From: Zobellia uliginosa
Lineage (GTDB): Bacteria; Bacteroidota; Bacteroidia; Flavobacteriales; Flavobacteriaceae
Assembly (NCBI RefSeq): GCF_018860745.1
Contig: NZ_JAHKPY010000002.1
Location: 124,001 to 188,000 of the forward strand
Direction: 5' to 3'
DNA length: 64,000 nucleotides
Shown piece by piece: positions 3,146-49,549 of this stretch. The position numbers and the translations under genes were made by a program. The notes under the pieces are model-generated. The model worked only from the letters and a program-made list of their open reading frames with translations, was not told where the DNA came from and searched no databases. Every line of letters starts with the position of its first letter. The first letter of the stretch is position 1.

Positions 3146-3507
3146 AATAAATTATTTTAGATTATTATTTATTGTAATTCATAGTGGGCCAGTAAGTTTC
3201 TTCAGCATCATTATCGCCTCATTAAAGTCTTCTAGTCTATCTAAGAGCTACTCTATTTTGTATGATTTCTTAGCTTTAATAGGGGTTTCAAGTTTACAAT
3301 TGCACTCACTTAAAAGCCTACTTAAAAAAACCGTATTCAAAGTTATAGGAAGGCGAGATATGATAACCTGACCTAGGTCAGGTACACGAAAAAAAACATG
3401 TAGTTTCAATTGAATTTTAGGTAACAATTTGAAGAAAATAATAGCTAGCCATTTAGGTGAAGACGAAATAGAAATTCTATTTAGACGGATGTTTTTTGGA
3501 CCTACGG
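3146..3507. other. Gene-free intergenic region upstream of oleate hydratase
   Basis: About 360 bp without an open frame that looks coding. It separates the end of the DUF4010 gene from the start of the oleate hydratase paralogue, both on the minus strand. The only clear signal is the Crp/FNR-type palindrome with its -7 box (listed separately). The predicted start of transcription near 3335 would leave an untranslated leader of about 190 bases. I saw no convincing terminator hairpin. Confidence 0.6.
3338..3380 (-). promoter_or_regulatory. Crp/FNR-type site and promoter of the oleate hydratase operon
   Basis: Palindrome TGACCTAGGTCA at 3369-3380, extended to 16 perfect bases (3367-3382). A -7 box TAACTTTG, a full match to TAnnTTTG on the minus strand, lies at 3338-3345. 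Centre-to-centre distance is 33 bp, as at the other sites of this window. Confidence 0.8.
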
Positions 3508-4779
3508 CTAAACGTTGTTGGAAAGGATATAGATAACACCTACGAGAATGATGGAGCCAAACGTATAGCCTACGAGCTTTCCTGTAGTTTTTGAGCCCTT
3601 AAATATACTGATGCCTAACTTAACGAGCATATTACTTGAAATGGCAGCAATGATAACCAGTGAAGCTAATTCTAGTTTTTCTGAATCCAATGAAAATTTT
3701 GCCATGCTTATGGTAATAGCATCCGTATCTGCTAACCCCGAAATTAAGGCGGAATAATACAGACCACTTTCGCCAAAAAATTTGTTACTATAGAAAACAG
3801 CAAACAGTATTACGACGTAAATAGCTCCAAAACCAATAGCATTTAATATGTTAAGCGGGTTTCCTAATTTAATATTGGTATCTGGTTTTTTTGTATCTCT
3901 TTGGATGAGGACTAACGAGACTACTATACAGATTATGGTCAAAAGGGAAAAGGGGAGTGCCAAATACATGAGAAGGCCTCCATTAAAAATATACGTCAAA
4001 AGTGCAAGTCTAGGAAACATAATTGCGGAAGCAATAATGATACCTGCTGCGTATTTTTTTGAGAGCTCGGGAGATTCTTCACTACGGGAGGCATAGCTCC
4101 AAGTTACGGCTGTGCTAGATATAAGACCACCTAGAATAGCTGTTAATAATATGCCCCTTTTTGAACCTACATATTTTACTAAAAAATAGCCTATAAAATT
4201 TAAAAAAGACACGATTACTACTATAGATCCAATTTCAAACGGGTTCAATAAACCACTGGGGCCGTAGACTTTGTTGGGAAGAAAAGGCAGAATCAAAAGT
4301 GATATAATGGAGAACTTAATAAAAGCAAAAAGTTCTTCTGAAGTAATGTTACTTATTACCGTTCGGAACCTGGTTTTTAATGAAAGTAGGGTTACTATTA
4401 TAACTGCTGTGGCAACGGCATCTCTATAATACTCTGCAGATACCATAATACCCAAAACAAACGTAGCGATCAAGGCTAAGTTGGTGGTTAGCCCTTTACC
4501 ATATTCTTCCTGTTTCTGATACATACGATTAACTGCCAAAAACAATATAAAAGCACCTAAACTAACGATCAATATCCAAACGGTAAATTTATCGGTCAGG
4601 TTTTCTAAAGCGAAACCTAATATGGCAACAATGGGAAAAGTACGGATACCCGCAAACCCTTGGTCTTTTAACTTATCATATTCTCTTTCCAAGCCAATGA
4701 TCAAACCAATTCCCATACTTATGAGCACACCTAGAAGATAGCTGTCCATAAATTCATTCATACCTTCAAACTTTATCAT
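3508..4779 (-). CDS. MgtC/SapB family membrane protein with DUF4010
   Basis: 423-residue polytopic membrane protein. The N-terminal 140 residues match the MgtC/SapB family: LISMGIGLIIGLEREY followed by GIRTFPIVAILGF, the family's usual G-L-E-R-E and R-T-x-x-x signature. The rest is the DUF4010 part with about eight more hydrophobic segments, including SGLADTDAITISMAKF near residue 350. MgtC relatives are tied to survival in low magnesium and to inhibition of F-type ATP synthase in some pathogens; the DUF4010 branch has no settled function. It is the last gene of an operon with a UbiB-like kinase (28 bp gap) and a coiled-coil protein. The presence of an alternative ATPase in the same island makes an energy-related role worth considering, but that is inference. 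Confidence 0.85.
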   Translation of the reverse strand: MIKFEGMNEFMDSYLLGVLISMGIGLIIGLEREYDKLKDQGFAGIRTFPIVAILGFALENLTDKFTVWILIVSLGAFILFLAVNRMYQKQEEYGKGLTTNLALIATFVLGIMVSAEYYRDAVATAVIIVTLLSLKTRFRTVISNITSEELFAFIKFSIISLLILPFLPNKVYGPSGLLNPFEIGSIVVIVSFLNFIGYFLVKYVGSKRGILLTAILGGLISSTAVTWSYASRSEESPELSKKYAAGIIIASAIMFPRLALLTYIFNGGLLMYLALPFSLLTIICIVVSLVLIQRDTKKPDTNIKLGNPLNILNAIGFGAIYVVILFAVFYSNKFFGESGLYYSALISGLADTDAITISMAKFSLDSEKLELASLVIIAAISSNMLVKLGISIFKGSKTTGKLVGYTFGSIILVGVIYILSNNV

Positions 4780-4807
4780 CCAGTTTTTAGATTAGTGGTT
4801 CTAATAC

Positions 4808-6945: not shown

Positions 6946-6988
6946 CAAAGGTGTAAATTTCCTAGCATAATAGATATGACCCAAGTCA
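6946..6988 (-). promoter_or_regulatory. Crp/FNR-type site and promoter of the coiled-coil/ubiB/DUF4010 operon
   Basis: Palindrome TGACCCAAGTCA at 6977-6988, flanked to TATGAC...GTCATA. On the minus strand CACCTTTG at 6946-6953 matches the -7 box TAnnTTTG in five of six positions. Centre-to-centre distance is 33 bp. The start codon lies about 55 bp further on. Confidence 0.75.
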
Positions 6989-9515: not shown

Positions 9516-9558
9516 CAAAGCTATCTCAAACCATTATGTTAACAAATGATTTAAATCA
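9516..9558 (-). promoter_or_regulatory. Crp/FNR-type site and promoter of the ahpD-like/ftsH operon
   Basis: Palindrome TGATTTAAATCA at 9547-9558. The minus strand carries TAGCTTTG at 9516-9523, a full match to TAnnTTTG. Centre-to-centre distance is 33 bp. The start codon of the AhpD-like gene is about 27 bp further on. Confidence 0.8.
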
Positions 9559-9620: not shown

Positions 9621-9663
9621 TGACGTAGGTCATTTTAAACCGAACATAGCCCATATACCTTTG
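9621..9663 (+). promoter_or_regulatory. Crp/FNR-type site and promoter of the WG-repeat gene
   Basis: Palindrome TGACGTAGGTCA at 9621-9632 and -7 box TACCTTTG at 9656-9663, a full match, centred 33 bp apart on the plus strand. It is back to back with the minus-strand site at 9547-9558; the two site centres are 74 bp apart. Confidence 0.8.
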
Positions 9664-10401: not shown

Positions 10402-10444
10402 TGACCTTGGTCATATAATTTTTAATAATCTTAGACTAAATTTG
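10402..10444 (+). promoter_or_regulatory. Crp/FNR-type site and promoter of the first universal stress protein
   Basis: Palindrome TGACCTTGGTCA at 10402-10413, with arms extending to ATATGACC and GGTCATAT (10399-10416). The -7 box TAAATTTG at 10437-10444 is a full match, 33 bp centre to centre. The start codon lies 40 bp further on. Confidence 0.82.
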
Positions 10445-11862: not shown

Positions 11863-12936
11863 CTATTCTAAGAGCATTGCCGCATAATATGCAGCTCCTA
11901 GCAAAGCTGTATTGTCATTTAGAATAACATCTACGGGAACCATTTGTAAAAGAGAGTTCATACGTCCAGACTGCATGAAGTTATCTGTAAATACTTCTCT
12001 ATTCATTCCTTTTATAATCTTGGGCATAATTCCTCCGCCAATATAAATTCCTCCGGTAGCCTTGAATTTTAAGGCAAGTTGAGAAGTTTCTATTGCTAAA
12101 AACCGAACAAAAAGATCTAAGGTTTCTCTGCAGACTACATCAGAACCTCCCAAAGCAGTTGAAGTAATTACAGCAGCAGGATCTTCTTTGGCCATTTTTG
12201 CTTTAAAAGCATCTGTTTCTTTTTCGCCACTAACATTACGTATCAGTTGATAGGTATCGCGTATACCTTGTCCTGATAGTAAACGTTCCCAACTGACATG
12301 ACCATATTTCTGCTGAAAATATTTCCATACTTCCAGGTCAAAGTCGTTCCTTGGGCTAAAATCACAATGGCCTCCTTCCGTGGCAAAAGGATGGTATGCA
12401 GAGCCGTCCCAAAATAGACCAGCTTCTCCTAAACCGGTTCCTGGAGAAATAATAACGGCATTACCTTCAATTTTTGAACCATATTTTAAATGATCTAAAT
12501 CCTTTTCCTCTAGTGCGGCCAGCCCATAGGCATTGGCCTGCATGTCATTTATTAAAAAAATGGATTTAAGATGAAGTGCTTTGATGAGCTTTTTGGTATC
12601 AATACTCCAAGGGAAATTGGTACCGTGTACTTTTCCTTTGGTTATGGGACCGGCTACACCAAAACATATACTATCTATCTTAGCCATTTCTTCTATTTCA
12701 AAATCTTCTATAATTTCTAATAAAGAGGAATGGTTTTTTGTTCTATATGATTTTTGTTTGACCAGAAAAAGGTGTCCATCTTTAAATTCGTAAAGTGCGA
12801 GATTCGTTTTAGTTCCTCCTATATCACCGGCTAGCACATTTCCGTTTGTATTGCCTAAGCTCGTTTTAGAGCCTACTGCCAAAGGAATCAAAGATTTATG
12901 AGTTAAGGGCAAGGAAGGTTTTTCCGTCATTTTCAT
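11863..12936 (-). CDS. glk: Glucokinase
   Basis: 357-residue cytosolic ATP-dependent glucose kinase of the proteobacterial Glk type (PF02685), forming glucose 6-phosphate. Motifs: the phosphate-binding LAGDIGGTKTNLALYE near residue 36, GVAGPITKGKV near residue 95, INDMQANAYGL with the catalytic Asp near residue 128, GPGTGLGEA near residue 164 and TEGGHCDFSPR near residue 186. It is slightly longer than the usual 320 residues because of an N-terminal extension of about 25 residues. It is the last gene of the operon ppsA-ldhA-gpmA-pfkB-fba-glk (12 bp after fba). Glucose released by the GH15 enzyme of the same island would be its natural substrate. Confidence 0.93.
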   Translation of the reverse strand: MKMTEKPSLPLTHKSLIPLAVGSKTSLGNTNGNVLAGDIGGTKTNLALYEFKDGHLFLVKQKSYRTKNHSSLLEIIEDFEIEEMAKIDSICFGVAGPITKGKVHGTNFPWSIDTKKLIKALHLKSIFLINDMQANAYGLAALEEKDLDHLKYGSKIEGNAVIISPGTGLGEAGLFWDGSAYHPFATEGGHCDFSPRNDFDLEVWKYFQQKYGHVSWERLLSGQGIRDTYQLIRNVSGEKETDAFKAKMAKEDPAAVITSTALGGSDVVCRETLDLFVRFLAIETSQLALKFKATGGIYIGGGIMPKIIKGMNREVFTDNFMQSGRMNSLLQMVPVDVILNDNTALLGAAYYAAMLLE

Positions 12937-12948
12937 AATAGTTTGTTT

Positions 12949-13995
12949 TTAAGCTATTGTAATTGCGGGGTCTAAGTAGATATCTTGTATAAGATTTAAA
13001 AGTTTAATGCCTTCTTTCATAGGTCTTTGGAAAGCTTTACGACCAGAAATCAATCCCATACCACCAGCTCTTTTGTTAATTACCGCAGTACGTGCAGCGG
13101 CTGCAAAATCATCATCACCTGAAGCACCACCGGAATTTATTAGTCCAGCTCTCCCCATGTAGCAGTTCGCAACTTGGTATCTGGTCAGGTCAATAGGGTG
13201 GTTTGTTGTTAGTTTACTATAGACAAGGTCACTAGTTTTCCCAAAATTTTTCAAAGCATTAAAACCACCATTATTACTTGGCTGTTTTTGTTTGATGATA
13301 TCGGCCTCAATGGTTACGCCAAGGTGATTTGCCTGTCCGGTTAAATCTGCACTAACAGCATAATCTCTATCTTTTTTAAAAGCATCATTACGTAAGTAAC
13401 ACCAGAGAACGGTGGCCATCCCCAATTCATGGGCACGTTTAAATGCCTTACTTGTTTCTTGAATTTGTCTGTCTGATTCTGGCGAGCCAAAATAAATTGT
13501 GGCCCCTACAGCTACGGCTCCCATATCCCAAGCCTGTTCTACTTGAGCAAAATAGATTTGATCAAAAGTATTGGGGTACGTAAGTAATTCGTTATGGTTT
13601 AATTTAACCAAAAAAGGAATTTTATGAGCGTATTTTCTAGATACTGCGCCTAGTACACCTAATGTGGAAGCTACTGCATTACAACCTCCTTCAATGGCAA
13701 GTTTCACAATATTCTCAGGGTCAAAATACTCAGGGTTTGGTGCAAAACTGGCACCTGCAGAGTGTTCTACCCCTTGATCTACCGGCAATAAGGAAAGATA
13801 TCCCGTGCCACCTAGTCTTCCATGATCAAACAGTTGTTGTAAACTTCCTAAAACCCGGTTAGATCTATCTGATGATGCCATAATCCTATCATTAAAATCG
13901 GGGCCTGGAAGGTGGATTTTATCCTTAGGAATAGTAATACATTCGTGATCTAGTAGATAGAAGGTTTCTTCTTTTAAATATTTTTCAATTTCCAT
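12949..13995 (-). CDS. fbaB: Class I fructose-bisphosphate aldolase (FbaB/DhnA type)
   Basis: 348-residue Schiff-base aldolase that splits fructose 1,6-bisphosphate into the two triose phosphates. It has the length and pattern of the archaeal/E. coli FbaB type: [15 protein letters not shown] near residue 65, [26 protein letters not shown] and [13 protein letters not shown] near residue 285. As a class I enzyme it needs no divalent metal and would work when metal supply or redox state changes. It sits between pfkB (10 bp) and glk (12 bp) in the carbon operon. Bacteroidota normally carry a class II aldolase elsewhere, so this is probably a condition-specific second enzyme; the window cannot confirm that. 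Confidence 0.93.
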
Positions 13996-14005
13996 CAGTA
14001 GTGTT

Positions 14006-14959
14006 TTAATTTGTTTCTAAAACGGGTGTTTGCTGTTTTATCCATTCATACAGCTTGTCCGCATCTTCTTTTATACATAGTTGTGTGCCATGGTGCATTG
14101 TGGCGGCAGTTCCGCACGCCACGCCATACTGAACCATGTCAACTAAAGATTTACCCCATATAAGGCTCATGACCATTCCGGCCACCATACTATCTCCTGC
14201 ACCAATAGTACTTTTCTGGTGAACCACAGGAGCTGGTATTTGTACCATTTCATTTTTGGTAGCTAGTAATGCCCCTTTTGGCCCTAGGGATACCACAAGA
14301 ATTTGGCAATCATTAGTTTTTAAAAATTCTTTCGCCAATGATTTCAGGTCTAAGTCTGTTATGGAGGAAACCCCGCATAACACACCTAATTCTGCCAAGT
14401 TGGGTTTGAGCATGTAAACATGGGATTTTGCAGCTTTCATAAGTGCATCACCAGAAGTGTCAAGAATAAAAAGTGCTTCTTTATTTTCTGCTATACGGCT
14501 TACTTTTACATAAAAATCGTCTGGTACGTTGGGAGGTAGTTTTCCACTTGCAACTAAATAATCTCCCTTATTTAACTGCAATTCCAATTGCTTTAAGGCA
14601 TTTTGCCATTCTGCTTCCTTTATTGGTGGGCCGGGCATTCCAAATCTGTATTGTTGATTGGTACTTGTATCCGTTACCGCCAGGTTTTCCCGCGTAAACC
14701 CCTCAATGGGAGTTATGGATTGTTCAATGTTTTTTTCATCTAAAAGTTGTTTCAAATATGCTCCCGAAGGACCACCGGAAAAGTAGCTGCAAAGTGATGT
14801 GCCACCTAACTTTTTTATAGCTCGTGATACATTTATCCCACCACCACCGGCGTCAAAAGTGGGTTGGGTACAACGTAATTTTGTATTAGGGCCAATTCCT
14901 GCCACAGTAGTGCTTTTATCAATTGCGGGGTTTACGGTAAGCGTTATTATGCGGGCCAT
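14006..14959 (-). CDS. pfkB: 6-phosphofructokinase II (PfkB family)
   Basis: 317-residue ribokinase-family sugar kinase. It starts [14 protein letters not shown], typical of PfkB/FruK/LacC, has the glycine-rich [19 protein letters not shown] near residue 36 and the catalytic [10 protein letters not shown] with the Asp base near residue 258. Neighbourhood decides for 6-phosphofructokinase rather than 1-phosphofructokinase or tagatose kinase: it lies between aldolase and phosphoglycerate mutase genes, with no fructose or galactose transport genes nearby. It forms fructose 1,6-bisphosphate for the class I aldolase encoded 10 bp downstream. E. coli Pfk-2 is also a condition-specific isozyme. Sugar-phosphate specificity is inferred. 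Confidence 0.88.
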
Positions 14960-14990
14960 TTGAATAAATTTTAATACTAGTTTGTTTGTT

Positions 14991-15680
14991 CTATTTTAAT
15001 TGGTAATGTTCTATAACATTTAGCTTACCATCAAACTCATACAAGTGCGGAACACCCGTAGCTACTTCTACCTTTGCAATATCTTCGGAAGATATATGCT
15101 CTAGATACTCTATAAGAGCGCGCAATGAATTTCCGTGAGCGGATATCAATACGGTTTTACCCTTTGCCAATTCTGGGGCAATAGCTTCAAAAAAGTAATT
15201 GACCACTCTTTTTGACGTATCCTTAAGCGATTCAGCCATTGGTAAAACAGAGGTATCCAAAGCCTTGTAATTAGAATCGAATTTTGGATTTCGTTTATCG
15301 TTTATAGAAAGACTAGGAGGGGGAGTTGCATAACCTCTGCGCACACTTAAAAAGAATTCTTCTCCAACTTCTTCTAGAACTTCATCTTTGTTCTTTCCTT
15401 GCCAATCTCCATAATGCCTTTCATTCAGCTTCCAGCTATATTTGGTGTCTACATGCATCATTTCTGCTGTTTCTAATAGAATCCATGCGGTACGGATGGC
15501 TCTTTTTAAATAAGAGGAGAAACAGATATCAATATCAATAAGATTTGATTTAATGAGTTCCCCGGCTTTTTTTGCCTCTTCCATTCCCTCCGGTGCCAAG
15601 TCAATATCCGTCCATCCCGTAAAAACATTTTTTACGTTCCATAGACTTTTACCGTGCCTGACCAATATTAATTTTCCCAT
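14991..15680 (-). CDS. gpmA: 2,3-bisphosphoglycerate-dependent phosphoglycerate mutase
   Basis: 229-residue histidine phosphatase superfamily enzyme that interconverts 3- and 2-phosphoglycerate. The phosphorylated histidine is in LVRHGKSLWN (residues 6-15, His9), followed by FTGWTDIDLAPEG, the substrate-binding LNERHYGDWQGKN near residue 86 and the second histidine in ISAHGNSLRALI near residue 179. The length equals that of E. coli GpmA. It lies 31 bp before pfkB and 7 bp after ldhA in the same operon. With the enolase at 33474 it supplies the lower glycolytic steps of the island. Confidence 0.94.
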   Translation of the reverse strand: MGKLILVRHGKSLWNVKNVFTGWTDIDLAPEGMEEAKKAGELIKSNLIDIDICFSSYLKRAIRTAWILLETAEMMHVDTKYSWKLNERHYGDWQGKNKDEVLEEVGEEFFLSVRRGYATPPPSLSINDKRNPKFDSNYKALDTSVLPMAESLKDTSKRVVNYFFEAIAPELAKGKTVLISAHGNSLRALIEYLEHISSEDIAKVEVATGVPHLYEFDGKLNVIEHYQLK

Positions 15681-15687
15681 GCTAGGC

Positions 15688-16677
15688 TTATTTTATCTCG
15701 TTAACACAAGAATCTCCTTTTTCCAAACATTCCAAATTGTCAAAGGTTATTCGTGAAATATTGTTAAGGGCTGTATCTGTCAAAAATGCTTGGTGACTAC
15801 TTATCAATACATTTCTAAGGGTCATTAAACGCGCCATGGAATCATCTTGAAGAATATCTTCAGAATGATCTTCAAAATAGAGACCTTTTTCCTCCTCATA
15901 AACATCCATCCCGAAATAGCCTATTTGACCGGATTTAAGTCCGTTTATAACATCTTGGGTTTTTACCAATCCGCCACGGCCAGCATTTATCAGCATTACG
16001 CCTTTTTTCATATCCGCAATTCTAGCCTCATCAATAAGGTGATGTGTTTCTGCATTTAGAGGAGCATGGAGCGTAATGATATTAGATTGCTTGCACAAAG
16101 AATCTAAATCTGTGTAAGTAGCATCATATTTTTCTACCAAAGATTTATCTTCAAAAATGTCATAAAGCAATAGTTTACAGCCAAACCCATGTAAAATTTT
16201 TGCCACTACACGACCAATTTTGCCTGTGCCTATAATGCCCACTGTTTTGCCATTCATATCAAAACCAACCAGCCCGTTTAATGAAAAATTCATTTCCATA
16301 ATCCGGTAGTGGGTTCTTACTAATTTTCGGTTTAGGGCAAGCATAACACCTACCGTAAACTCAGCAATAGCATAGGGGGAATATTCGGGTACCCGCGCCA
16401 TGCGGATACCCAACTTTTTTGCATGCGGCACATCTATATTATTAAAACCGGCCGAGCGTAATGCTACATACTTAACCCCAAGATCATGCAACCTATCTAA
16501 GATGGGTGCAGATGCATTGTCTTCTGTAAAAATGCATATGGCATCACATCCTTTTGCTAAATCTACCGTATCTAAAGTTAGATAGGTATCAAACATTTTT
16601 AAGGTGTGCTTGTCATTATTGGCATTTTGCAAATAGTCCCTTTCCCAATTATGGACGTTGAATATTGCTATTTTCAT
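15688..16677 (-). CDS. ldhA: D-lactate dehydrogenase (fermentative)
   Basis: 329-residue NAD-dependent D-2-hydroxyacid dehydrogenase, the length and layout of fermentative D-LDH, which reduces pyruvate to D-lactate and regenerates NAD+. Motifs: substrate-domain ALRSAGFNNID with the Arg/Asn pair near residue 73, the nucleotide site VGIIGTGKIGR near residue 146, INAGRGGLV with the catalytic Arg near residue 230 and SSHQAFLTDTAL with the catalytic His near residue 293. It lies in the carbon operon, 20 bp after ppsA. Other D-2-hydroxyacid dehydrogenases are possible, but the glycolytic setting and the SSHQAFLT motif favour lactate. It is the clearest fermentation marker in the window. Confidence 0.9.
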   Translation of the reverse strand: MKIAIFNVHNWERDYLQNANNDKHTLKMFDTYLTLDTVDLAKGCDAICIFTEDNASAPILDRLHDLGVKYVALRSAGFNNIDVPHAKKLGIRMARVPEYSPYAIAEFTVGVMLALNRKLVRTHYRIMEMNFSLNGLVGFDMNGKTVGIIGTGKIGRVVAKILHGFGCKLLLYDIFEDKSLVEKYDATYTDLDSLCKQSNIITLHAPLNAETHHLIDEARIADMKKGVMLINAGRGGLVKTQDVINGLKSGQIGYFGMDVYEEEKGLYFEDHSEDILQDDSMARLMTLRNVLISSHQAFLTDTALNNISRITFDNLECLEKGDSCVNEIK

Positions 16678-16697
16678 TTTTAAGTTCTAAAGTGATA

Positions 16698-19106
16698 TCA
16701 ATTACTGCTTTCGGCCATACCGTATTCGGTTTTGCTTTTCTCAGCTTTATTAATGTTTTTAATACCTGAAATCAACGCATCAGGATTAAAGGATACGGAG
16801 TTAATACCTTGTTCTACAAGAAACTGGGCAAACTCAGGAAAATCACTTGGTGCCTGACCGCAAAGACCAATTTTGGTGTTCGTCTTACGAGCAGATTGAA
16901 TAACCATGGCAATCATTTTTTTAACTCCTGTATCGTTGATGTCAAAGATGTCACTCAACAATTCAGAATCTCTATCCACACCCAAAGTCAGTTGTGTCAA
17001 ATCGTTTGAGCCAATAGAAAATCCGTCAAAGAATTCAGCAAATTGTTCTGCTAAGATGATGTTGTTAGGTATCTCGGTCATCATGTAAAGTTGAAGTCCA
17101 TTTTCACCTCGCTTCAATCCGTTTTTTTCTAAAACCTCTAGCACTTTTGCAGCTTCTTTTAGCGTACGACAGAAAGGAATCATAATTTTTACATTGGTCA
17201 ACCCCATGGTTTCCCGTACTCTTTTTAATGCTTTACATTCTAGAGCAAAAGCATCTTGGTATTTAGGATTGTAGTATCTAGAAGCACCTCTAAAACCTAA
17301 CATTGGATTTGACTCTACGGGCTCAAATTCAGTACCGCCTATTAAGCTGGCATATTCGTTGGTTTTAAAATCACTGGTACGAACAATAACATCTTTTGGA
17401 TAAAAGGCAGCGGCTATAGTTCCAATACCTTCGGCAAGTTTGTGTACAAAATAATCTGACTTGTCTGGATAGTGGTGTGTTAGTTTCTGGATTTTATCCT
17501 TAACCGCTTGGTCTTTCAACGTATCAAAATGCTTCAAGGCCATAGGGTGAATTTGAATAGAATTGTTGATAACGAACTCCATACGCATCAATCCCACTCC
17601 TGCAGAAGGATAAAACGAGAATTTGAACGCCTGATCTGGATCAGCCAAAATTAGCATAGGTTGCGTTTTTGGTTTTCCTAAGGTAGTTAGGTCCACTTCG
17701 GTTTCATTCCATTCTAAAAGGCCATCATAGACAACACCGGTATCGCCCTCTGCGCAAGAAATGGTAATTTCTTGTCCGTCTTTAATGACTTCTGTAGCAT
17801 TGTTACTTCCCACTATGGCAGCAGCACCTACTTCTCGGGCAACGATAGCCGCATGGCTGGTTCGCCCACCTTGATTTGTAACAATACCTGCTGCTTTTTT
17901 GAGAATCGGATCCCAATCGGGATTGGTACGTTCGGTAACCAATATTTCTCCTTTTTGAAGTTTATCAGATTCTGCTGGGCTATGTAGTATACGGGCTTTT
18001 CCCGAAGCTATTTTGTTACCCAAGCCCATCCCATGAGTAATTTCTTTACCTTTTTTTAGTAAGGTATAGGTGTTGATTTTTAATTTATTCGTTTTAGCAC
18101 TCTGAACAGTTTCGGGTCTAGCTTGAACAATGAAGAGTTCATTTGTTTGTCCGTCTTTAGCCCATTCAATATCCATAGGGCGTTTGTAATGGTCTTCAAT
18201 AATTAATGACCATTGGGCCAGTTTTACCACCTCTGCATCCGTAAGTACATATTGTTCTTGTTTCTTCAGAGGAGTATCAAGATTTATTGTTCCACTACCA
18301 GATTTATCATAAACCATGGTTTTTTCTTTGCTACCCAAATGTCTAGAAACAATAGGTTGTTCAATACCGTTTTTTAAGCTAGGTTTAAAAACAAAATAAT
18401 CATCGGGATTAATGCTGCCCTGAACGATATTTTCGCCCAAGCCATATATGCTGGAAACCATTACCACTTGATCAAAACCAGTATCTGGATCTAAGGTGAA
18501 GTTTACTCCGGAAGCTGCCAAATCTGAACGCACCATCATTTGTATACCAATGGATAACGCTACTTTAGTATGGTCAAAGTTGTTATCTTCTCTGTATTTA
18601 ATTGCACGGTCATTGAATAGTGATGCGTAACATCTCTTACAGGCGTCAATAAGTTCATCTATTCCTTTTACGTTCAAATAACTATCTTGTTGGCCTGCAA
18701 AACTTGCCGTGGGTAAATCTTCTGCAGTAGCGCTACTTCGTACCGCTAACGAAATATCACCTTTATATTTTTTAGATAGGGCATCGTATCCTTCTCCAAT
18801 AGCGTCTTTAAGATCTTTAGGAAGTTCTGTGTCTAAAATAGCTTTCCTTACGCTAGCACCAATCTCCTTTAAGTTCGAAAAATCTGTAGTATTCAATTTT
18901 GCTAAAAGACCAAAAATCTCTTCCTGAATGTGTACTTCTTGCAGAAAGTGCCAATACGCTTCTGCTGTAGTAGCAAAGCCATCAGGAATCTGGACTCCTT
19001 TACTGGTTAGCTTTTGAAACATTTCTCCGAGAGAGGCATTTTTACCTCCTACAGTTGGTACATCGTTAATGTCAATCTCACTAAAGTGACGTATGTAATT
19101 TTTCAT
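16698..19106 (-). CDS. ppsA: Phosphoenolpyruvate synthase
   Basis: Start placed at the ATG at 19106 (802 residues, the usual family length). The open frame runs on to 19175, but that extension overlaps the predicted promoter. The enzyme converts pyruvate, ATP and water to PEP, AMP and phosphate. Order of parts: PPDK-type N-terminal ATP-grasp domain (VPTVGGKNASLGEMF near residue 17, LAVRSSATAEDLP near residue 120), swivelling domain with phosphohistidine in GGRTSHAAIVARE near residue 425, and the TIM-barrel PEP domain ending FSIGSNDLTQLTLGVDRDS and GLCGQAPSD. It is first in the carbon operon. No pyruvate kinase gene is in the window, so the enzyme might also serve PEP-to-pyruvate flux; that is speculation. 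Confidence 0.93.
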   Translation of the reverse strand: MKNYIRHFSEIDINDVPTVGGKNASLGEMFQKLTSKGVQIPDGFATTAEAYWHFLQEVHIQEEIFGLLAKLNTTDFSNLKEIGASVRKAILDTELPKDLKDAIGEGYDALSKKYKGDISLAVRSSATAEDLPTASFAGQQDSYLNVKGIDELIDACKRCYASLFNDRAIKYREDNNFDHTKVALSIGIQMMVRSDLAASGVNFTLDPDTGFDQVVMVSSIYGLGENIVQGSINPDDYFVFKPSLKNGIEQPIVSRHLGSKEKTMVYDKSGSGTINLDTPLKKQEQYVLTDAEVVKLAQWSLIIEDHYKRPMDIEWAKDGQTNELFIVQARPETVQSAKTNKLKINTYTLLKKGKEITHGMGLGNKIASGKARILHSPAESDKLQKGEILVTERTNPDWDPILKKAAGIVTNQGGRTSHAAIVAREVGAAAIVGSNNATEVIKDGQEITISCAEGDTGVVYDGLLEWNETEVDLTTLGKPKTQPMLILADPDQAFKFSFYPSAGVGLMRMEFVINNSIQIHPMALKHFDTLKDQAVKDKIQKLTHHYPDKSDYFVHKLAEGIGTIAAAFYPKDVIVRTSDFKTNEYASLIGGTEFEPVESNPMLGFRGASRYYNPKYQDAFALECKALKRVRETMGLTNVKIMIPFCRTLKEAAKVLEVLEKNGLKRGENGLQLYMMTEIPNNIILAEQFAEFFDGFSIGSNDLTQLTLGVDRDSELLSDIFDINDTGVKKMIAMVIQSARKTNTKIGLCGQAPSDFPEFAQFLVEQGINSVSFNPDALISGIKNINKAEKSKTEYGMAESSN

Positions 19107-19150
19107 CGCTATGTTTTTAAAAGGTCGTTTCCGGCCAAGATTATAGACTA

Positions 19151-19193
19151 CGAATCTCCGATGTTTCCTTGCCAATGTAAATGACCTAGGTCA
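19151..19193 (-). promoter_or_regulatory. Crp/FNR-type site, probable promoter of the ppsA-ldhA-gpmA-pfkB-fba-glk operon
   Basis: Perfect palindrome TGACCTAGGTCA at 19182-19193 (14 bases perfect). On the minus strand GAGATTCG at 19151-19158 matches the -7 box in only four of six positions, but at the standard 33-bp spacing. Its centre is also exactly 33 bp from the centre of the next site, which serves the ATPase operon. Confidence 0.65.
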
Positions 19194-19214: not shown

Positions 19215-19257
19215 TGACCCAAATCATTTCAGTTGGAAATTTGGGGCAATACTTTTA
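19215..19257 (+). promoter_or_regulatory. Crp/FNR-type site and promoter of the N-ATPase operon
   Basis: Site TGACCCAAATCA at 19215-19226 and -7 box TACTTTTA at 19250-19257 (five of six), 33 bp centre to centre on the plus strand. The atpD start codon lies 26 bp further on. Confidence 0.75.
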
Positions 19258-19270: not shown

Positions 19271-20752
<1,482 letters not shown>

Positions 20753-20769
20753 ATCTAGAACTAAAAATA

Positions 20770-21159
20770 ATGGAGCTACATATTTTACTTCCGTTTAAGA
20801 TATTTCTTAAAATTTCTGGAGTGCTGCGTATTGTGGTAGATACCAATGCGGGTTCATACGGGTTTTTACCCCACAGGTTAGATTGTGTTGCCGCTTTGGT
20901 ACCTGGCATATTAACCTACGAGACAAAGGAAGGGCAAGATCACTACGTAGCAATGGATGAAGGTATACTAACGAAGAGGGACGGTTTTGTAGAGATATCC
21001 GTACGAAATGCAATAGCAGGAGCTGATTTAGGAAAACTTAGAAGTGCCGTAGAAAGTCAGTTTAGAAATTTAGATGAAGAGGAAAGAGATGTACGAAAGG
21101 CCGTTGCCAAATTAGAAAGTGAATTTATTCACGGGATTAAAAAACTTCGTCAATCATGA
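20770..21159 (+). CDS. atpC: N-type ATPase epsilon subunit
   Basis: 129-residue epsilon subunit of the F1 part. The N-terminal beta-sandwich is visible (MELHILLPFKIFLKISGVLRI, FLPHRLDCVAALVPGILTYE, HYVAMDEGILTKRDGFVEISV), followed by a C-terminal helical hairpin of about 45 residues. It lies 17 bp after atpD and overlaps atpQ by 4 bp, so translation is probably coupled. Epsilon normally connects gamma to the c-ring and modulates ATP hydrolysis. Confidence 0.9.
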   Translation: MELHILLPFKIFLKISGVLRIVVDTNAGSYGFLPHRLDCVAALVPGILTYETKEGQDHYVAMDEGILTKRDGFVEISVRNAIAGADLGKLRSAVESQFRNLDEEERDVRKAVAKLESEFIHGIKKLRQS

Positions 21160-21488
21160 GCAAAAATATAGAGGATAAAAAAAGAAAGAAAGGCTTCTTA
21201 GATGAAGTTGATAGTAAAGAAAAACAAATGCTATATGCCCGAAATGAAGAGAAAAGGAGTGAATGGAGAGGTTTTGGCACTTTTGGAATGGTGGGTTGGT
21301 CCGTTGCCGTGCCAACCGTATTAGGGGCCGTGTTTGGGGTATGGTTAGATCGGAGATATCCGCAGACTTTTTCTTGGACACTAACCTTATTGCTAGCGGG
21401 TTTGTTTGTTGGTTGTGCTCTTGCATGGCAATGGATAGACAAAGAAAATAAATCAATGCACGAACATAAAAATAAGAAAGATGAATGA
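21156..21488 (+). CDS. atpQ: N-type ATPase accessory subunit AtpQ
   Basis: 110-residue membrane protein with a charged N-terminus of about 45 residues, then two hydrophobic segments (GTFGMVGWSVAVPTVLGAVFGVWLD and TLTLLLAGLFVGCALAWQWI) separated by DRRYPQ. This is the pattern of the ATPase_gene1/AtpZ-like family, called AtpQ in N-ATPase operons. The position between atpC and atpR, with short overlaps on both sides, fixes the assignment. A role in assembly or magnesium/calcium handling has been proposed for the family. Confidence 0.85.
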   Translation: MSKNIEDKKRKKGFLDEVDSKEKQMLYARNEEKRSEWRGFGTFGMVGWSVAVPTVLGAVFGVWLDRRYPQTFSWTLTLLLAGLFVGCALAWQWIDKENKSMHEHKNKKDE

Positions 21489-21783
21489 TTTAGTAATAAC
21501 CTTATTGGTTTTGTTTGGCGGCTCTTGCTTGGGTTTTCTATTTTTTGGAGGACTCTGGTTTACTTCAAAAAAGATGTTATCCTCCAAAAAGCCGGTATTA
21601 TGGTATTTGGGAAGTTTGTTCATAAGAGTGGGGCTTACTCTTTTGGGTTTTTACTACATGGGCCAAAACAATTTTAAGTATATGTTGATTTGTCTCTTAG
21701 GTTTTATAGGCACTCGTTTTATTGTTATTCGTATGACCAAAATCAAAGAGATAAAACCAATAAAACTAGATAAAGAGTATTAA
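21481..21783 (+). CDS. atpR: N-type ATPase subunit AtpR
   Basis: 100-residue protein with three hydrophobic segments (LVITLLVLFGGSCLGFLFFGGLWFTS, VLWYLGSLFIRVGLTLLGFYYMG and YMLICLLGFIGTRFIVIR), matching the N-ATPase AtpR family (PF12966). Conserved Arg residues inside the membrane segments (SLFIRVGL, GTRFIVIR) have been suggested to face the c-ring carboxylates. It overlaps atpQ by 8 bp and ends 1 bp before atpB. Its presence is diagnostic for an N-ATPase. Confidence 0.85.
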   Translation: MNDLVITLLVLFGGSCLGFLFFGGLWFTSKKMLSSKKPVLWYLGSLFIRVGLTLLGFYYMGQNNFKYMLICLLGFIGTRFIVIRMTKIKEIKPIKLDKEY

Positions 21784-21784
21784 G

Positions 21785-22510
21785 ATGGAACTAAGTCCTG
21801 ACGAAACGATTTTTTGGCAAAATGGCTTTATAACCATCAACCTTACATTGGTTACCACTTGGGTATTAATGTTTGTATTGGTGCTTGTGTCCGTTTTGGT
21901 AACCAGAAAACTACGTACCGATTTAAAAATATCGCGGTGGCAATGTATTTTAGAAATGCTAGTGACCGGTATGAACGAGCAGATAAAAGAGGTTGGACTA
22001 AAGAAATCCGAAAAATTTCTGGGTTTTATAGGAACGCTCTTCATTTTTATAGCCTTTGCTAATTTGTGCATTATTTTTCCAGGTTATGAACCTCCTACGA
22101 GTTCATTATCTACAACAGCAGCTTTGGCCCTATGTGTTTTTCTAGCAACTCCCATTTTCGGTATTGCAGAAAATGGTGTTTTTCAATATTTAAAAACATT
22201 TATAGAGCCTACATTCATTATGCTGCCTTTTAATATTATAAGCGAAATATCGCGTACGTTGGCTTTGGCGGTTCGTCTCTTTGGTAATATTATGAGCGGT
22301 GGTCTAATTGTTACCATTCTCTTGAGTATAGCGCCATTGTTTTTTCCGGTGTTAATGACCGTGTTAGGACTTATAACAGGTGTTATACAGGCTTATATAT
22401 TTAGCATTTTAGCAACGGTATACATAGCTGCGGCAACTGAAGAATCGGATAAAAAGAAAGTAAGAAAGGAACAAGTAAATCATACATCTAAAACAGTAAT
22501 AGAAGCTTAA
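21785..22510 (+). CDS. atpB: N-type ATPase subunit a
   Basis: 241-residue Fo a subunit. The essential Arg is Arg164 in LALAVRLFGNIMSGG, preceded by NIISEISR. Hydrophobic segments occur near residues 15-40, 82-100, 112-130, 165-188 and 192-215, and the C-terminus ends in a short charged tail. It provides the ion half-channels against the c-ring. It follows atpR by 1 bp and is separated from atpE by 73 bp, the largest gap of the operon. Confidence 0.93.
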   Translation: MELSPDETIFWQNGFITINLTLVTTWVLMFVLVLVSVLVTRKLRTDLKISRWQCILEMLVTGMNEQIKEVGLKKSEKFLGFIGTLFIFIAFANLCIIFPGYEPPTSSLSTTAALALCVFLATPIFGIAENGVFQYLKTFIEPTFIMLPFNIISEISRTLALAVRLFGNIMSGGLIVTILLSIAPLFFPVLMTVLGLITGVIQAYIFSILATVYIAAATEESDKKKVRKEQVNHTSKTVIEA

Positions 22511-22583
22511 TAAGGAGGGAAGAAACCCCTTTTCAAAATTTAATTCAAAACTAAAAATTGGTATAACAACAAAATTTAATATT

Positions 22584-22850
22584 ATGGACAATGCTACAAT
22601 AATCGCAATGGTTTCAATCATTACAGCCGGAATAACAACAGGAATTGGCTGTATGATACCTGCTTTGGGTCAGGGTAAATCTATTTCAACAGCTTTAAGT
22701 TCAATGGCCCAGCAGCCAGATGCAAGTCAGACCGTTACGCGTACCCTTTTTGTGGGTCTGGCCATGCTAGAATCATTGGCAATCTATTGTTTTGTGATTT
22801 CAATGATCTTGATTTTTGCAAATCCTTTCTGGAACCATTTCATCGCTTAA
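22584..22850 (+). CDS. atpE: N-type ATPase subunit c
   Basis: 88-residue two-helix c subunit of the rotor ring. The ion-binding carboxylate is Glu63 in LAMLESLAIYCF. Compared with the Na+ ring of Ilyobacter, Gln (here Gln30 in ALGQG), the Glu, the following Ser (Ser64) and the Tyr (Tyr68) are all kept at the same spacing, while the Thr after the Ser is Leu65. This points to Na+ coupling but with one water-coordinating ligand changed, so Na+ specificity should be seen as likely rather than shown. It lies between atpB and atpF. Confidence 0.93.
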   Translation: MDNATIIAMVSIITAGITTGIGCMIPALGQGKSISTALSSMAQQPDASQTVTRTLFVGLAMLESLAIYCFVISMILIFANPFWNHFIA

Positions 22851-22860
22851 TACCTAAAAT

Positions 22861-23631
22861 ATGAAAATCGACTGGTTTACTGTTATAGCCCAAATCATCA
22901 ATTTTTTGGTGTTAATGTGGTTATTGAAACGTTTTCTTTATCAACCTATTTTATCTTCAATAGATGAACGGGAAACTAATATAAAGAACAAACTCTTGGA
23001 TGCTGAATCTCAGAAAAAAGAAGCAGCACAAGCCAAAGAAGAATTCAACCATAAAAACGAAACTTTCAATAAAGAGAAGGATGAATTAATGAAGAAGACT
23101 GCCGCGGAAGCCAAAACCGAAGGAGATAAGCTAAAGGTAAATGCTAGAAACGAAGCTAATGAGCTTAAAGATAGATTAGAAAAAGCTTTTGCCGAGGATC
23201 AAGCTATCAAAAATAATAATATGGCCAAGAGGTTGAAAGGGGAGGTTCTTGACATTGCAAGAAAAACATTGACAGACCTCTCTTCTGTTAGTTTAGAAGG
23301 GCAAACAGTAGATGTCTTTTTGAAAAAAATAAATGACCTACAAGCCCAGGAGAAAGCAAAATTTTCTGAGGCTCTAAAAGGAGGTAAGCCCGTATTGGTA
23401 CAAAGTGCTTTTGCCCTTTCTGCCAATCAACAAGGTTCCATACAAAAAACGATAAGTGGGTTATTGAAGACCGAGAATACCTACGAGTTTAAAACTAGGC
23501 CGGAATTGATTACAGGTATCGAAGTTTTAACCAATGGTTATAAATTATCTTGGAGTGTTACGGACTATTTGAAATCTTTTGAAGAAGATATTGAAGCAGA
23601 TAAAAAGGTTGAAATAGAAGCGAAAGAATAA
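22861..23631 (+). CDS. atpF: N-type ATPase subunit b, long form
   Basis: 256-residue b subunit, about 90 residues longer than ordinary b subunits. One N-terminal membrane segment ([20 protein letters not shown]) is followed by a long charged coiled coil (about residues 35-130) and a C-terminal globular part (SALAL-like [25 protein letters not shown], near residues 178-205) that resembles the delta subunit. The operon has no separate delta gene, as in other N-ATPases, so this C-terminal part probably does its job as stator link to alpha. Gaps to neighbours are 10 and 16 bp. Confidence 0.92.
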
Positions 23632-23647
23632 TCGAAATATAAATGAA

Positions 23648-25177: not shown

Positions 25178-25195
25178 CTCCTAAAAATAATCGCT

Positions 25196-26086
25196 ATGGA
25201 TTCGTTGGAAAGCTTAACAAGACAGATTACCGGAGCCAAAGAGCTAAACTCCATAGTGCGTACTATGAAGGCTATGGCTGCCGCTAATATTGGTCAATAT
25301 GAAAGGGCCATGGAATCTTTGGATGATTATTGGACCAATGTGTCTTTAGGACTTGTAGCTTATTTAAAAGCTATTGGTTTGGACAAACAGGATTCTAGAC
25401 AGAACGAGAACACTATTAAAAGAGAAAAGTCTATTTGCGCTATTGTTTTTGGATCAGACCAAGGTTTTGTTGGGCAGTTTAATGACTCCCTTTCGCAATA
25501 CGTCCAAGAATCTTTATCTACTCACGGAGGTAAATTGGAAATCTGGACCGTTGGTGTACGGGTACCGTTATTACTAGCGGATATGGGAATGACCGTGACC
25601 AAACAGTTTAACCTTCCAAATTCTATAAATGCTATTACCGCTCTTATTGGTTCAATTTTGGTACAGGTAGAGGAAAACCAAGAAAATGGAAATGTGGATG
25701 AGTATTACCTTTTCCATAATCACTTGGTAAACGAAGGGTCTTACGAACAAGAAAAATTACGCCTATTACCGCTAGATGCAGAATGGCGCCAGGAAAAAGC
25801 ACAGCTAAAATGGCCTACTCAAAAACAACCTGAAGTTATTGGTGATAGTAGTAAGCTTATACGCCGTTTAATTAGAGAATATCTCTTTGTAACGCTTTAT
25901 AAGACCTGTACGGAATCATTAGCTAGTGAAAACTTAAGTAGGTTGAATGCCATGCAACGTGCAGAAAAAAACATTGAAGAACTGTTAGATGATATTGGTA
26001 ATACCTACCACCGTTTAAGACAAAGTTCCATAGACGAAGAGCTTTTTGATGTAGTCTCTGGTTTTACTGCCTTAAAGAAAGATTAA
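25196..26086 (+). CDS. atpG: N-type ATPase gamma subunit
   Basis: 296-residue central-stalk gamma subunit. The N-terminal helix TRQITGAKELNSIVRTMKAMAAANIGQYERA is typical, FGSDQGFVGQFN marks the Rossmann-like middle, and the C-terminal helix ASENLSRLNAMQRAEKNIEELLDDIGNTYHRLRQ pairs with the first. It is the last gene of the atpDCQRBEFAG operon and is followed by a terminator before the convergent ABC operon. Confidence 0.93.
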   Translation: MDSLESLTRQITGAKELNSIVRTMKAMAAANIGQYERAMESLDDYWTNVSLGLVAYLKAIGLDKQDSRQNENTIKREKSICAIVFGSDQGFVGQFNDSLSQYVQESLSTHGGKLEIWTVGVRVPLLLADMGMTVTKQFNLPNSINAITALIGSILVQVEENQENGNVDEYYLFHNHLVNEGSYEQEKLRLLPLDAEWRQEKAQLKWPTQKQPEVIGDSSKLIRRLIREYLFVTLYKTCTESLASENLSRLNAMQRAEKNIEELLDDIGNTYHRLRQSSIDEELFDVVSGFTALKKD

Positions 26087-32498: not shown

Positions 32499-32541
32499 CA
32501 AAAGTAGGAGGTAGTATGATTTGTATTTATGATTCAAATCA
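32499..32541 (-). promoter_or_regulatory. Crp/FNR-type site and promoter of the TolC/HlyD/ABC efflux operon
   Basis: Palindrome TGATTCAAATCA at 32530-32541 and minus-strand -7 box TACTTTTG at 32499-32506, a full match, 33 bp centre to centre. The tolC-like start codon lies about 53 bp further on. Confidence 0.8.
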
Positions 32542-34851: not shown

Positions 34852-34894
34852 TGAAGGTATTACAGTATTCAAAAATGATGTATGATACAAGTCA
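34852..34894 (-). promoter_or_regulatory. Crp/FNR-type site, probable promoter of enolase
   Basis: Site TGATACAAGTCA at 34883-34894. On the minus strand TACCTTCA at 34852-34859 matches the -7 box in four of six positions at the standard 33-bp spacing. It lies between the end of the mlaD-like gene and enolase, which suits a separate enolase unit. Confidence 0.6.
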
Positions 34895-37511: not shown

Positions 37512-37554
37512 CAAAATTAAACGACCTTCAACCAAATAGGAATGACTTGGGTCA
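37512..37554 (-). promoter_or_regulatory. Crp/FNR-type site and promoter of the mlaEFD operon
   Basis: Palindrome TGACTTGGGTCA at 37543-37554 and minus-strand -7 box TAATTTTG at 37512-37519, a full match, 33 bp centre to centre. It is back to back with the ClC site; the two centres are 46 bp apart. Confidence 0.82.
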
Positions 37555-37588: not shown

Positions 37589-37631
37589 TGATCTGTGTCA
37601 TGCTAGATGCAGTGTGCACCATCTAATTTTG
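37589..37631 (+). promoter_or_regulatory. Crp/FNR-type site and promoter of the ClC gene
   Basis: Site TGATCTGTGTCA at 37589-37600 and plus-strand -7 box TAATTTTG at 37624-37631, a full match, 33 bp centre to centre. The start codon lies 40 bp further on. Confidence 0.8.
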
Positions 37632-39108: not shown

Positions 39109-39151
39109 TGATCTAGGTCATTCGTATCGCTTATCTATCAAGATAATTTTG
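39109..39151 (+). promoter_or_regulatory. Crp/FNR-type site and promoter of the general stress protein gene
   Basis: Site TGATCTAGGTCA at 39109-39120 and -7 box TAATTTTG at 39144-39151, a full match, 33 bp centre to centre. The start codon lies 57 bp further on. Confidence 0.82.
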
Positions 39152-43740: not shown

Positions 43741-43783
43741 TAAAAGTATAATGAAGTAGCGTGAATGGATATGATTTAAATCA
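43741..43783 (-). promoter_or_regulatory. Crp/FNR-type site and promoter of the small protein/Spx-like/GH15 operon
   Basis: Palindrome TGATTTAAATCA at 43772-43783 and minus-strand -7 box TACTTTTA at 43741-43748 (five of six), 33 bp centre to centre. The predicted leader is about 130 bases. Confidence 0.72.
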
Positions 43784-44839: not shown

Positions 44840-44882
44840 TAAAGATATAGTAGTAAGATAATCCTTACTATGACATATGTCA
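44840..44882 (-). promoter_or_regulatory. Crp/FNR-type site and promoter of the second universal stress protein
   Basis: Perfect palindrome TGACATATGTCA at 44871-44882 (extended by flanking A/T bases) and minus-strand -7 box TATCTTTA at 44840-44847 (five of six), 33 bp centre to centre. Confidence 0.75.
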
Positions 44883-49027: not shown

Positions 49028-49315
49028 TTATTGTCTTTGAGGTCTCTTTCCTGATGGTTTTGGAGCCTTTTCTACTTCTTCTTTTGATAAAAAACCATCT
49101 TTGTTGGTATCAATCTCCGTAAACTTTTCTTTTAAAGGACCGTTCACTTCAGTTTTTGAAAGAAGACCATTTTTATTGGAATCCATTTTAGTGAAAATTG
49201 CATCAACAGAAGGGGGACCTTGTTTTGCAGGTTTACTGTTAGCTTGTTGGCTCTTGCATGACATTACGAATATTGCGATAGTGGTTACCCCTATTAACAT
49301 TGCTTTTGTACTCAT
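49028..49315 (-). CDS. EF-hand lipoprotein, copy 2
   Basis: Start chosen at the ATG at 49315 (95 residues), because it gives a good lipoprotein signal (MSTKAMLIGVTTIAIFVMSCKSQQ, Cys20); the open frame continues 27 codons upstream. Two EF-hand loops, DSNKNGLLSKTE near residue 45 and DTNKDGFLSKEE near residue 69, followed by a short basic tail. It is first in copy 2 of the cassette, 42 bp before the YHYH gene. Confidence 0.83.
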   Translation of the reverse strand: MSTKAMLIGVTTIAIFVMSCKSQQANSKPAKQGPPSVDAIFTKMDSNKNGLLSKTEVNGPLKEKFTEIDTNKDGFLSKEEVEKAPKPSGKRPQRQ

Positions 49316-49506
49316 ATTTGTAGTTTTAAGATTCAAGTTTGCAGTTACAAATATTGGAAATGGTTTCACACCAAATGGCTTCTTTAAGTGAATCAACGAT
49401 AGTTCTCAGTGAATGGACTTAATAGCTCTGTAAAAAGTTTAATGCATGCTATGTATATATTCAATTAAGAGATTATAAATACATTGTAGTAAGATAATAG
49501 GCGCCA

Positions 49507-49549
49507 TGATTTAGGTCAAAAAAATAAAGTGCAATCTGAATTTATTTTG
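49507..49549 (+). promoter_or_regulatory. Crp/FNR-type site in the divergent region
   Basis: Site TGATTTAGGTCA at 49507-49518 with a plus-strand box TTATTTTG at 49542-49549 (five of six), 33 bp centre to centre, towards the persulfide dioxygenase gene. On the minus strand a weaker box (four of six) exists at 49476-49483, so the EF-hand cassette could be the target instead or as well. Confidence 0.65.

Follow-up and report, generated by a model that had tools for sequence, protein, structure and literature searches.

How one arrangement of operator site and promoter box came to stand before almost all the operons of a gene block, and which protein reads it, are the questions raised by the 64,000-nucleotide stretch of the Zobellia contig NZ_JAHKPY010000002.1 analysed here (the window, C10:124001-188000). 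An earlier note on this DNA had described 15 intergenic TGAY-N4-RTCA sites, each with a TAnnTTTG-like box centred 33 bp downstream towards the gene, and had ascribed them to class II activation by a single Crp/FNR-family protein. The evidence set out below suggests that a receiver-Crp fusion protein encoded near the window, designated REC-Crp, is probably the class II activator of these island sites.

A scan of the window yielded 18 TGAYN4RTCA sites and recovered all 15 claimed ones, each at its proposed centre. At a gap of 23 between site and box, which equals the centre distance of 33 bp, eight exact TAnnTTTG boxes and 14 boxes with at most one mismatch were present; each of the remaining gaps between 0 and 99 had 0-2 and 0-3, respectively. 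Only 0.024 exact boxes and 0.41 boxes with at most one mismatch are expected at one gap (Poisson P 2.6e-18 and 3.0e-17). The reported quality of the 15 boxes (eight exact, five with one mismatch and two, before ppsA and enolase, with two) was likewise reproduced at gap 23. Two sites without a box, centred at 17637.5 and 21739.5, lie inside the open reading frames (ORFs) 16698-19175 and 21481-21783. The assertion that such fixed spacing cannot be chance thus stood (eight exact boxes against 0.024 expected), and the gap counts of window and whole genome together rule out a chance origin of the 33-bp spacing.

Across the genome, 4.86 Mb in 15 contigs, 21 exact pairs occurred at gap 23, as against one in the reversed-pattern control and 12 summed over all 30 remaining gaps of the range 8-38. 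The comparison of density inside and outside the window that the earlier note had called for placed eight of these 21 pairs within its 64 kb, a 46-fold density (P 1.6e-10). Further pairs were found on both sides of the window, at C10:98.3-121.5 kb before it and at 198.7-229.8 kb beyond it, so that 14 of the 21 exact pairs, including the eight in the window, fall in C10:98538-229815. The segment C10:98341-174000, whose limits were drawn after the pairs had been seen, makes up 1.6% of the genome and holds 12 of the 21 exact pairs (84-fold density). We take this segment, whose upstream end lies about 26 kb outside the window, as the island proper; the original description of a 46-kb island confined to 3338..49549 did not hold, as the pairs continue beyond it and the island is larger. 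That nearly every operon carries such a promoter was correct for 15 of 16 crude operons (918-51147) when up to two box mismatches were allowed, and for only 12 of 16 with at most one.

The published sigma-A consensus of Flavobacterium psychrophilum places TAnnTTTG at −12 to −5 (PMC9723704), and the available text of that paper contained no match for Crp or FNR. With the box at this position and the site centred 33 bp further upstream, the centre of the site computes to −41.5, and the geometry of the proposed activation from about −41 was thereby borne out. This is the class II position of CRP and FNR. In Escherichia coli, class II promoters of these proteins carry an inverted TGA..TCA repeat that is centred at −41.5 and overlaps the upstream promoter element, and the recognition helix contains Glu and Arg. 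The island promoters are alike in the centre of the repeat and the candidate activator in its Glu/Arg helix, whereas the Bacteroidota sigma-A box TAnnTTTG at −12 to −5 takes the place of the −10 hexamer, and the candidate activator is a response regulator rather than a ligand-binding CRP or an Fe-S FNR. The geometry supports the assignment of the pairs to class II Crp/FNR-type promoters, with predicted transcription starts.

Of 149 Flavobacteriaceae genomes, 134 showed the 33-bp layout, against control counts of 0-2 per genome in each orientation, and so did 121 of 149 genomes of the class. The loci of Dyadobacter type, many of them closely related, had 39 exact boxes at gap 23 in 43 loci, and smaller exact peaks of 10 at gap 0, nine at gap 22 and seven at gap 45. 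The layout must therefore be a general feature and was rejected as a peculiarity of the island, where the density, the TGAY-CYRR-GTCA core and the likely regulator are what is special. For the Bacteroidota, with promoters unlike those of bacteria at large, a widespread class II rule (a centre at −41.5 relative to TAnnTTTG) may be used for predicting Crp/FNR regulons. Among the literature matches listed, none joined TAnnTTTG with Crp/FNR sites and none described REC-Crp or the Zobellia island; known kinds of element (class II Crp promoters, two-component control and N-ATPase) are here joined in a combination without description among these matches.

So many similar pairs in one region might also be accounted for by a dispersed repeat or mobile promoter element inserted many times. 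Spacers and cores, however, vary between pairs while TGAY, RTCA and the box are constant, for which reason this explanation was rejected, and orthologous promoters retain their position but not their spacer sequence; we regard such an origin as highly improbable. C or G at N1 or N4 was found in 14 of 20 sites of the studied island and in 98 of 148 sites of other islands of group A (defined below), versus 23 of the 133 non-A rows listed, which come from 15 of 138 non-A genomes and leave out G119, which was listed with them but belongs to group A. The group-A set allowed one box mismatch and the non-A set exact boxes only; restricted to exact boxes, 40 of 57 group-A sites had C or G at these positions. 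The genome G033, a family genome without a group-A REC-Crp, contains several island-like cores (e.g. TGATTTAGGTCA and TGATATAGGTCA), several of them with A in the next position, where T is usual, which may point to a further regulator.

Eight matches to HTH_Crp_2 are present in the genome. REC-Crp, a fusion of receiver, cyclic-nucleotide (cNMP)-like and Crp helix-turn-helix (HTH) domains of 355 amino acids, is encoded at C10:105767-106834, some 17 kb before the start of the window, and shares its operon with a histidine kinase of 1092 amino acids (C10:102511-105789). It matches PF00027 (6.2e-23) and PF13545 (HTH_Crp_2, 6.2e-14) as well as Crp-family chains in the PDB (from 1.3e-18), and has the order of the CRP/FNR superfamily, a cNMP-binding-like domain followed by a Crp-type HTH. 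Its N-terminus is a receiver domain without the FNR-type cysteine cluster, and the FNR-like candidate is a separate gene (L002). On alignment with CRP, the stretch GDFIGELGLF..ERSAWVRA reads GDFIGQLCVL..YTETAVAL in REC-Crp. The Glu and Arg/Ser through which CRP contacts cAMP are not kept in this stretch of REC-Crp, which speaks against a cAMP receptor of the CRP type. Another Crp/Fnr gene, at 52245-52922 (+) within the window, was rejected as the activator since its recognition helix, SRVVISR, lacks the conserved Glu and no site pair precedes it. A sub-threshold HTH_Crp_2 match (26.2 bits) at 56374-56550 (C10:180374-180550), in an ORF of 160 amino acids that begins with unrelated sequence, is perhaps a broken copy of this gene.

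Orthologues of REC-Crp with at least 54% identity (group A) were found in 11 of the 149 family genomes. The island-type promoter, defined as TGAYCYRRGTCA-N23-TANNTTTR, occurred in 10 of these 11 genomes versus five of the other 138 (P 2.9e-11, kinship ignored). The surroundings of REC-Crp in these genomes, 885 kb in all, contained 71 exact boxes at gap 23 versus 0-4 at other gaps from 0 to 59, and 174 versus 0-17 when one mismatch was allowed. These 71 are part of the 192 exact pairs of the group-A genomes and lie in 1.9% of the DNA, where 3.6 would be expected; the stretches include 145 kb of the studied genome that had been selected with its pairs already in view. The Hsp20 gene in 10 of 10 and the YtxH gene in seven of seven genomes in which the gene was found have retained the site and a box with no more than one mismatch before them.

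The same promoters might instead be driven by the FNR-like protein encoded at C1:499388-500074, which has an N-terminal CxxC and is presumably oxygen-sensing, with REC-Crp as its target or minor partner. Its recognition helix (ATESCIR) is nearly identical to that of REC-Crp (ATETAIR), and the shared spacing of Glu and Arg makes cross-binding possible, so that the FNR-like protein may bind some or all of the sites; moreover, the 33-bp layout also occurs elsewhere in the genome and in genomes without a group-A REC-Crp. In a family-wide survey that covered REC-Crp and this protein, however, the island-type promoter followed REC-Crp group A, as described above, and was not associated with an FNR-like orthologue (10 of 91 genomes with and five of 58 without one at E 1e-40 or better, P 0.78). 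Four of the 11 group-A genomes (G054, G056, G063 and G108) have no FNR-like orthologue at this threshold, yet carry 3-9 exact pairs around REC-Crp. The clustering of the pairs around the REC-Crp gene and the A/T-rich cores elsewhere also speak against control by the FNR-like protein, which we consider unlikely. A joint network, in which REC-Crp sets the level and FNR adds oxygen control, perhaps with a second Cys-bearing Crp/Fnr protein encoded on C8, would agree with the E..xR recognition helices common to both proteins and with mixed cores within the island (e.g. TGACATATGTCA and TGATTTTTGTCA); the association of the promoter with REC-Crp group A alone needs no second protein, and such a network seems rather improbable. 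The earlier attribution to one Crp/FNR-family protein is thus plausible in that REC-Crp can be named as a candidate, while exclusive control by one protein is unsupported, given how closely the recognition helix of the FNR-like protein resembles that of REC-Crp.

REC-Crp as the probable activator directs attention to the kinase that shares its operon. The first, N-terminal PAS domain of this kinase (PAS1) gave 14 PDB matches, 13 of which were the heme PAS domains of DosP or FixL, and the aligned heme His is present. This His was present in G000, in 42 of 43 kinases of Dyadobacter type and in six of six group-B kinases. Residues 384-502 form a LOV domain, whose closest PDB relatives were mostly LOV proteins among the matches listed, and which matched the NCBIfam YtvA family at 1.8e-44, under the whole-protein cut-off of that model. 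The photoactive Cys and the residues C,Q,N,N,Q that contact flavin mononucleotide (FMN) are all in place in G000. By BLAST comparison, the LOV Cys was found in 12 of 15 group-A kinases, none of 43 of Dyadobacter type and one of six of group B. The 15 comprise the kinases of the 11 genomes and of four named relatives (L100 and L104, which belong to the same genomes as G001 and G129, were excluded); within the 11 genomes the Cys occurred in 10 of 11 kinases, that of G063 having no LOV match. In the two Maribacter kinases L101 and L102 (residues 400-526), Phe replaces the photoactive Cys, which makes these LOV domains natural candidates for light-blind versions. The kinases of the Dyadobacter-type loci (L106-L153) have a single PAS domain and about 420 amino acids, a minimal form of the system. 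A simple reading of this distribution would be that an ancestral kinase with a single heme-type PAS domain gained the LOV domain in the Zobellia-type lineage.

The kinase/REC-Crp operon is itself preceded by a pair within 600 bp in nine of the 11 group-A genomes, seven times with an exact box. An exact upstream pair was present in 36 of the 43 Dyadobacter-type loci, which are often close relatives and not independent. In 33 of the 36, the pair precedes a gene of 453-471 amino acids followed by the kinase and then REC-Crp; in two others it lies about 325 bp before the kinase and in one (L125) 1.6 kb before it. In the two cases scanned, the first gene of the three-gene run is hemN, encoding an oxygen-independent coproporphyrinogen oxidase, and its position behind the pair links the pair to anaerobic metabolism.

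We propose that the kinase would phosphorylate the receiver of REC-Crp on low oxygen and/or light. The Crp part would then bind TGAY-N4-RTCA as a dimer and touch RNA polymerase, an interaction that would stand in for the upstream promoter contact, with sigma-A recognizing the TAnnTTTG box at −12 to −5. By also activating its own operon, REC-Crp would provide positive feedback. The output would be a programme of stress and fermentation that may include glucoamylase, glucokinase, PfkB, aldolase, a phosphoglycerate-mutase-like enzyme, the second enolase, phosphoenolpyruvate (PEP) synthase, D-2-hydroxyacid dehydrogenase, the N-ATPase, Hsp20, a ferritin-like Dps candidate and universal stress proteins, and the block with its promoters would largely have moved between bacterial orders. 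In its full form, as a light- and oxygen-gated survival regulon in which a kinase with a heme-type PAS and a working LOV domain switches on roughly fifteen to twenty-five class II promoters together through a receiver-Crp protein, and in which sensor, activator, promoters and energy genes travel between orders as a self-wired regulon, this proposal is a tentative one. The analysis provides a dense island with a candidate pair of sensor and activator, and opens light and oxygen control to direct testing in a marine Zobellia.

Several observations weigh against the proposed kinase/REC-Crp system. The boxes before ppsA and the second enolase are weak, with two mismatches each, and the crude operon 45041-46653 is the sole one of 16 without a site. 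Island-type promoters occur in five genomes without a group-A REC-Crp (G025, G074, G111, G117 and G135), and the group-A genome G108 has no exact island-type match, its two TGACCTAGGTCA sites having boxes with one mismatch. Within the studied genome the Y..R core discriminates mildly, being found at eight of 12 exact island sites versus one of seven off contig C10. The pair before hemN in the Dyadobacter-type loci is weak evidence for autoregulation there, since hemN is a usual target of FNR. As for the sensor, the PAS1 His is retained in just eight of the 15 group-A kinases, and PAS1 lacks the distal Met and the O2-binding Arg of DosP at the aligned places. Among the 11 genomes, three of the 10 LOV domains that have the Cys lack the signalling Gln, which is replaced by His in G001 and G108 and by Ser in G119.

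Parts of the proposed system resemble known ones. In the rhizobial FixL-FixJ-FixK cascade, a PAS kinase, a receiver protein and a Crp-family activator act in series on operator sites, as is proposed here; the NCBIfam FixK model matches the Crp part of REC-Crp at 2.4e-21, under its cut-off. Unlike in that cascade, receiver and Crp are one protein with neither a separate FixJ nor a FixJ/LuxR-type step, and the island kinase has LOV, other PAS and GAF domains that set it apart from FixL. With LOV histidine kinases, which include blue-light-activated kinases in the PDB, and YtvA-type LOV proteins it shares the Cys and the FMN-contact residues, differing from LOV histidine kinases in its proposed output, the REC-Crp activator of a gene island. 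The DosR/DevR dormancy regulon of mycobacteria places survival genes under two-component control, as is proposed here, but differs in regulator family, sites and phylum, and the island targets lie clustered with their regulator and seem to travel together with their promoters. Plasmid-borne N-ATPase clusters of Legionella anisa, Croceicoccus marinus and Hymenobacter psoromatis likewise have an N-ATPase near fermentation, sugar or metal-efflux genes; their gene sets are otherwise different, with no REC-Crp among the genes listed for those plasmids.

Cyclobacterium qasimii belongs to the Cytophagales and Zobellia to the Flavobacteriales. In C. qasimii, the genes from glucokinase to PEP synthase, the N-ATPase, enolase, ClcA and glucoamylase occur in the same order with 66-94% protein identity, the Dps candidate is 92% identical, and site-box pairs precede several of the matching genes. 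REC-Crp (77% identical) and the kinase (66%) are on another contig, and five of the nine exact pairs of this genome lie on the two contigs carrying the block and REC-Crp/kinase. The C. qasimii stretches retrieved gave no match to the operons of the ABC exporter, Mla, FtsH/UbiB and universal stress proteins, and PEP synthase and enolase had no pair there at one mismatch or fewer. The island enolases of Zobellia and Cyclobacterium are 90-91% identical, as against 68% for the housekeeping enolase (one housekeeping gene compared), and this difference, the conserved order of the block and the separation of the two hosts into different orders point to horizontal transfer of the block with its promoters, as far as can be judged from the sequences. 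Target operons with matching promoters in two orders, with the candidate regulator in both genomes, bear on how regulons spread horizontally. The island enolase of C. qasimii consists of two overlapping frames or fragments (L170-L171, G149:C147:30509-31778). An island-type enolase is lacking in Kriegella and in G001, a Z. uliginosa genome (contig NZ_FTOB01000002.1) of the same genus as the studied genome. No transfer RNA gene was found at the island edges in six loci or in the window.

The promoters of the window, with positions of the combined site and box, are as follows. Oleate hydratase (1544-3145) and a DUF308 gene (918-1481) are served by 3338..3380 (-), with the site TGACCTAGGTCA at 3369-3380 and the box TAACTTTG at 3338-3345. 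The promoter 6946..6988 (-), with the site TGACTTGGGTCA and the box CACCTTTG (one mismatch), serves 6505-6891, a UbiB-like gene (4808-6490) and an MgtC/DUF4010 gene (3508-4779), and its orthologues in G001 and G129 retain site and box with one mismatch each. Upstream of an AhpD/CMD-like gene (9139-9489) and ftsH (7164-9137), the promoter 9516..9558 (-) combines TGATTTAAATCA with the exact box TAGCTTTG. On the opposite strand, 9621..9663 (+), with TGACGTAGGTCA and the exact box TACCTTTG, serves a WG-repeat protein gene ending at 10368, and 10402..10444 (+), with TGACCTTGGTCA and the exact box TAAATTTG, serves a universal stress protein gene (10485-11267) together with 11318-11749.

The glycolysis/fermentation operon (11863..19175, -) comprises six genes, for PEP synthase (ppsA), D-2-hydroxyacid dehydrogenase, a phosphoglycerate-mutase-like protein, a PfkB kinase, a DeoC-family aldolase and glucokinase, and has the weak promoter 19151..19193 (-), in which the site TGACCTAGGTCA is combined with the box GAGATTCG (two mismatches). 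The promoter 19215..19257 (+), with TGACCCAAATCA and TACTTTTA (one mismatch), serves the operon of the N-ATPase, an alternate F1Fo ATPase (19283..26086, +). The beta, epsilon, alpha and gamma subunits of this enzyme score above the curated NCBIfam cut-offs (TIGR03305, 819, cut-off 752; TIGR03324, 847, cut-off 750.5; TIGR03323, 366, cut-off 282; TIGR03166, 155, cut-off 100). The site and the box (one mismatch) of this promoter are retained in Z. uliginosa, Z. barbeyronii and C. qasimii.

An ABC-2 exporter/TolC operon (26230-32445) follows 32499..32541 (-), which has TGATTTGAATCA and the exact box TACTTTTG. The second enolase (33474-34745) and a PNPOx-like gene (32929-33381) are served by the weak promoter 34852..34894 (-), with TGACTTGTATCA and the box TACCTTCA (two mismatches). 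The exact box TAATTTTG recurs in three promoters: 37512..37554 (-), with TGACCCAAGTCA, for an Mla-type lipid transporter (34934-37476); 37589..37631 (+), with TGATCTGTGTCA, for ClcA (37672-39003); and 39109..39151 (+), with TGATCTAGGTCA, for a YflT-domain stress protein (39209-39736) and 39783-40316. The promoter 43741..43783 (-), with TGATTTAAATCA and TACTTTTA (one mismatch), lies about 0.4 kb upstream of a Spx/ArsC-like gene (43001-43366) and a glucoamylase gene (40542-42914), and 44840..44882 (-), with TGACATATGTCA and TATCTTTA (one mismatch), serves a universal stress protein gene (43882-44700). A metallo-hydrolase/rhodanese gene (49732-51147) has two pairs, 49507..49549 (+), with TGATTTAGGTCA and TTATTTTG (one mismatch), and a sixteenth pair of the window that had been overlooked before, 49619..49661 (+), centred at 49624.5, with TGACGAATATCA and GAGCTTTG (one mismatch).

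With oleate hydratase, MgtC/DUF4010, UbiB-like, FtsH, AhpD-like and universal stress proteins, ABC exporter, second enolase, Mla, ClcA, YflT and glucoamylase genes accompanying these operons in the window, the island holds a near-complete glycolysis set. Upstream of the window there are genes for Hsp20, a YtxH protein, a ferritin-like protein that we take for Dps, a patatin and, by sequence inspection only, a cardiolipin-synthase-like protein. Such a gene content would be consistent with fermentative survival under limited respiration, at the expense of glucans that are either stored or taken from outside.

At C10:110150 (L014:10150-10161), the palindrome TGACCTAGGTCA has a box 33 bp away on each side, one exact and one with a mismatch, and is thus able to serve two divergent promoters; this two-sided arrangement is retained in Z. 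uliginosa and Kriegella with 0 or 1 mismatch per box. A second cluster of pairs at C10:216-230 kb (L017 and L018) lies beside genes for two universal stress proteins, a beta-Casp metallo-hydrolase and a cation-transporting ATPase, and orthologues of the genes of this cluster are located near REC-Crp in G011. Within 45655-49396 of the window, YHYH-domain genes (45655-46653 and 47984-48985) alternate with weak EF-hand-type calcium-binding matches (46881-47249 and 49028-49396), apparently as a duplicated module.

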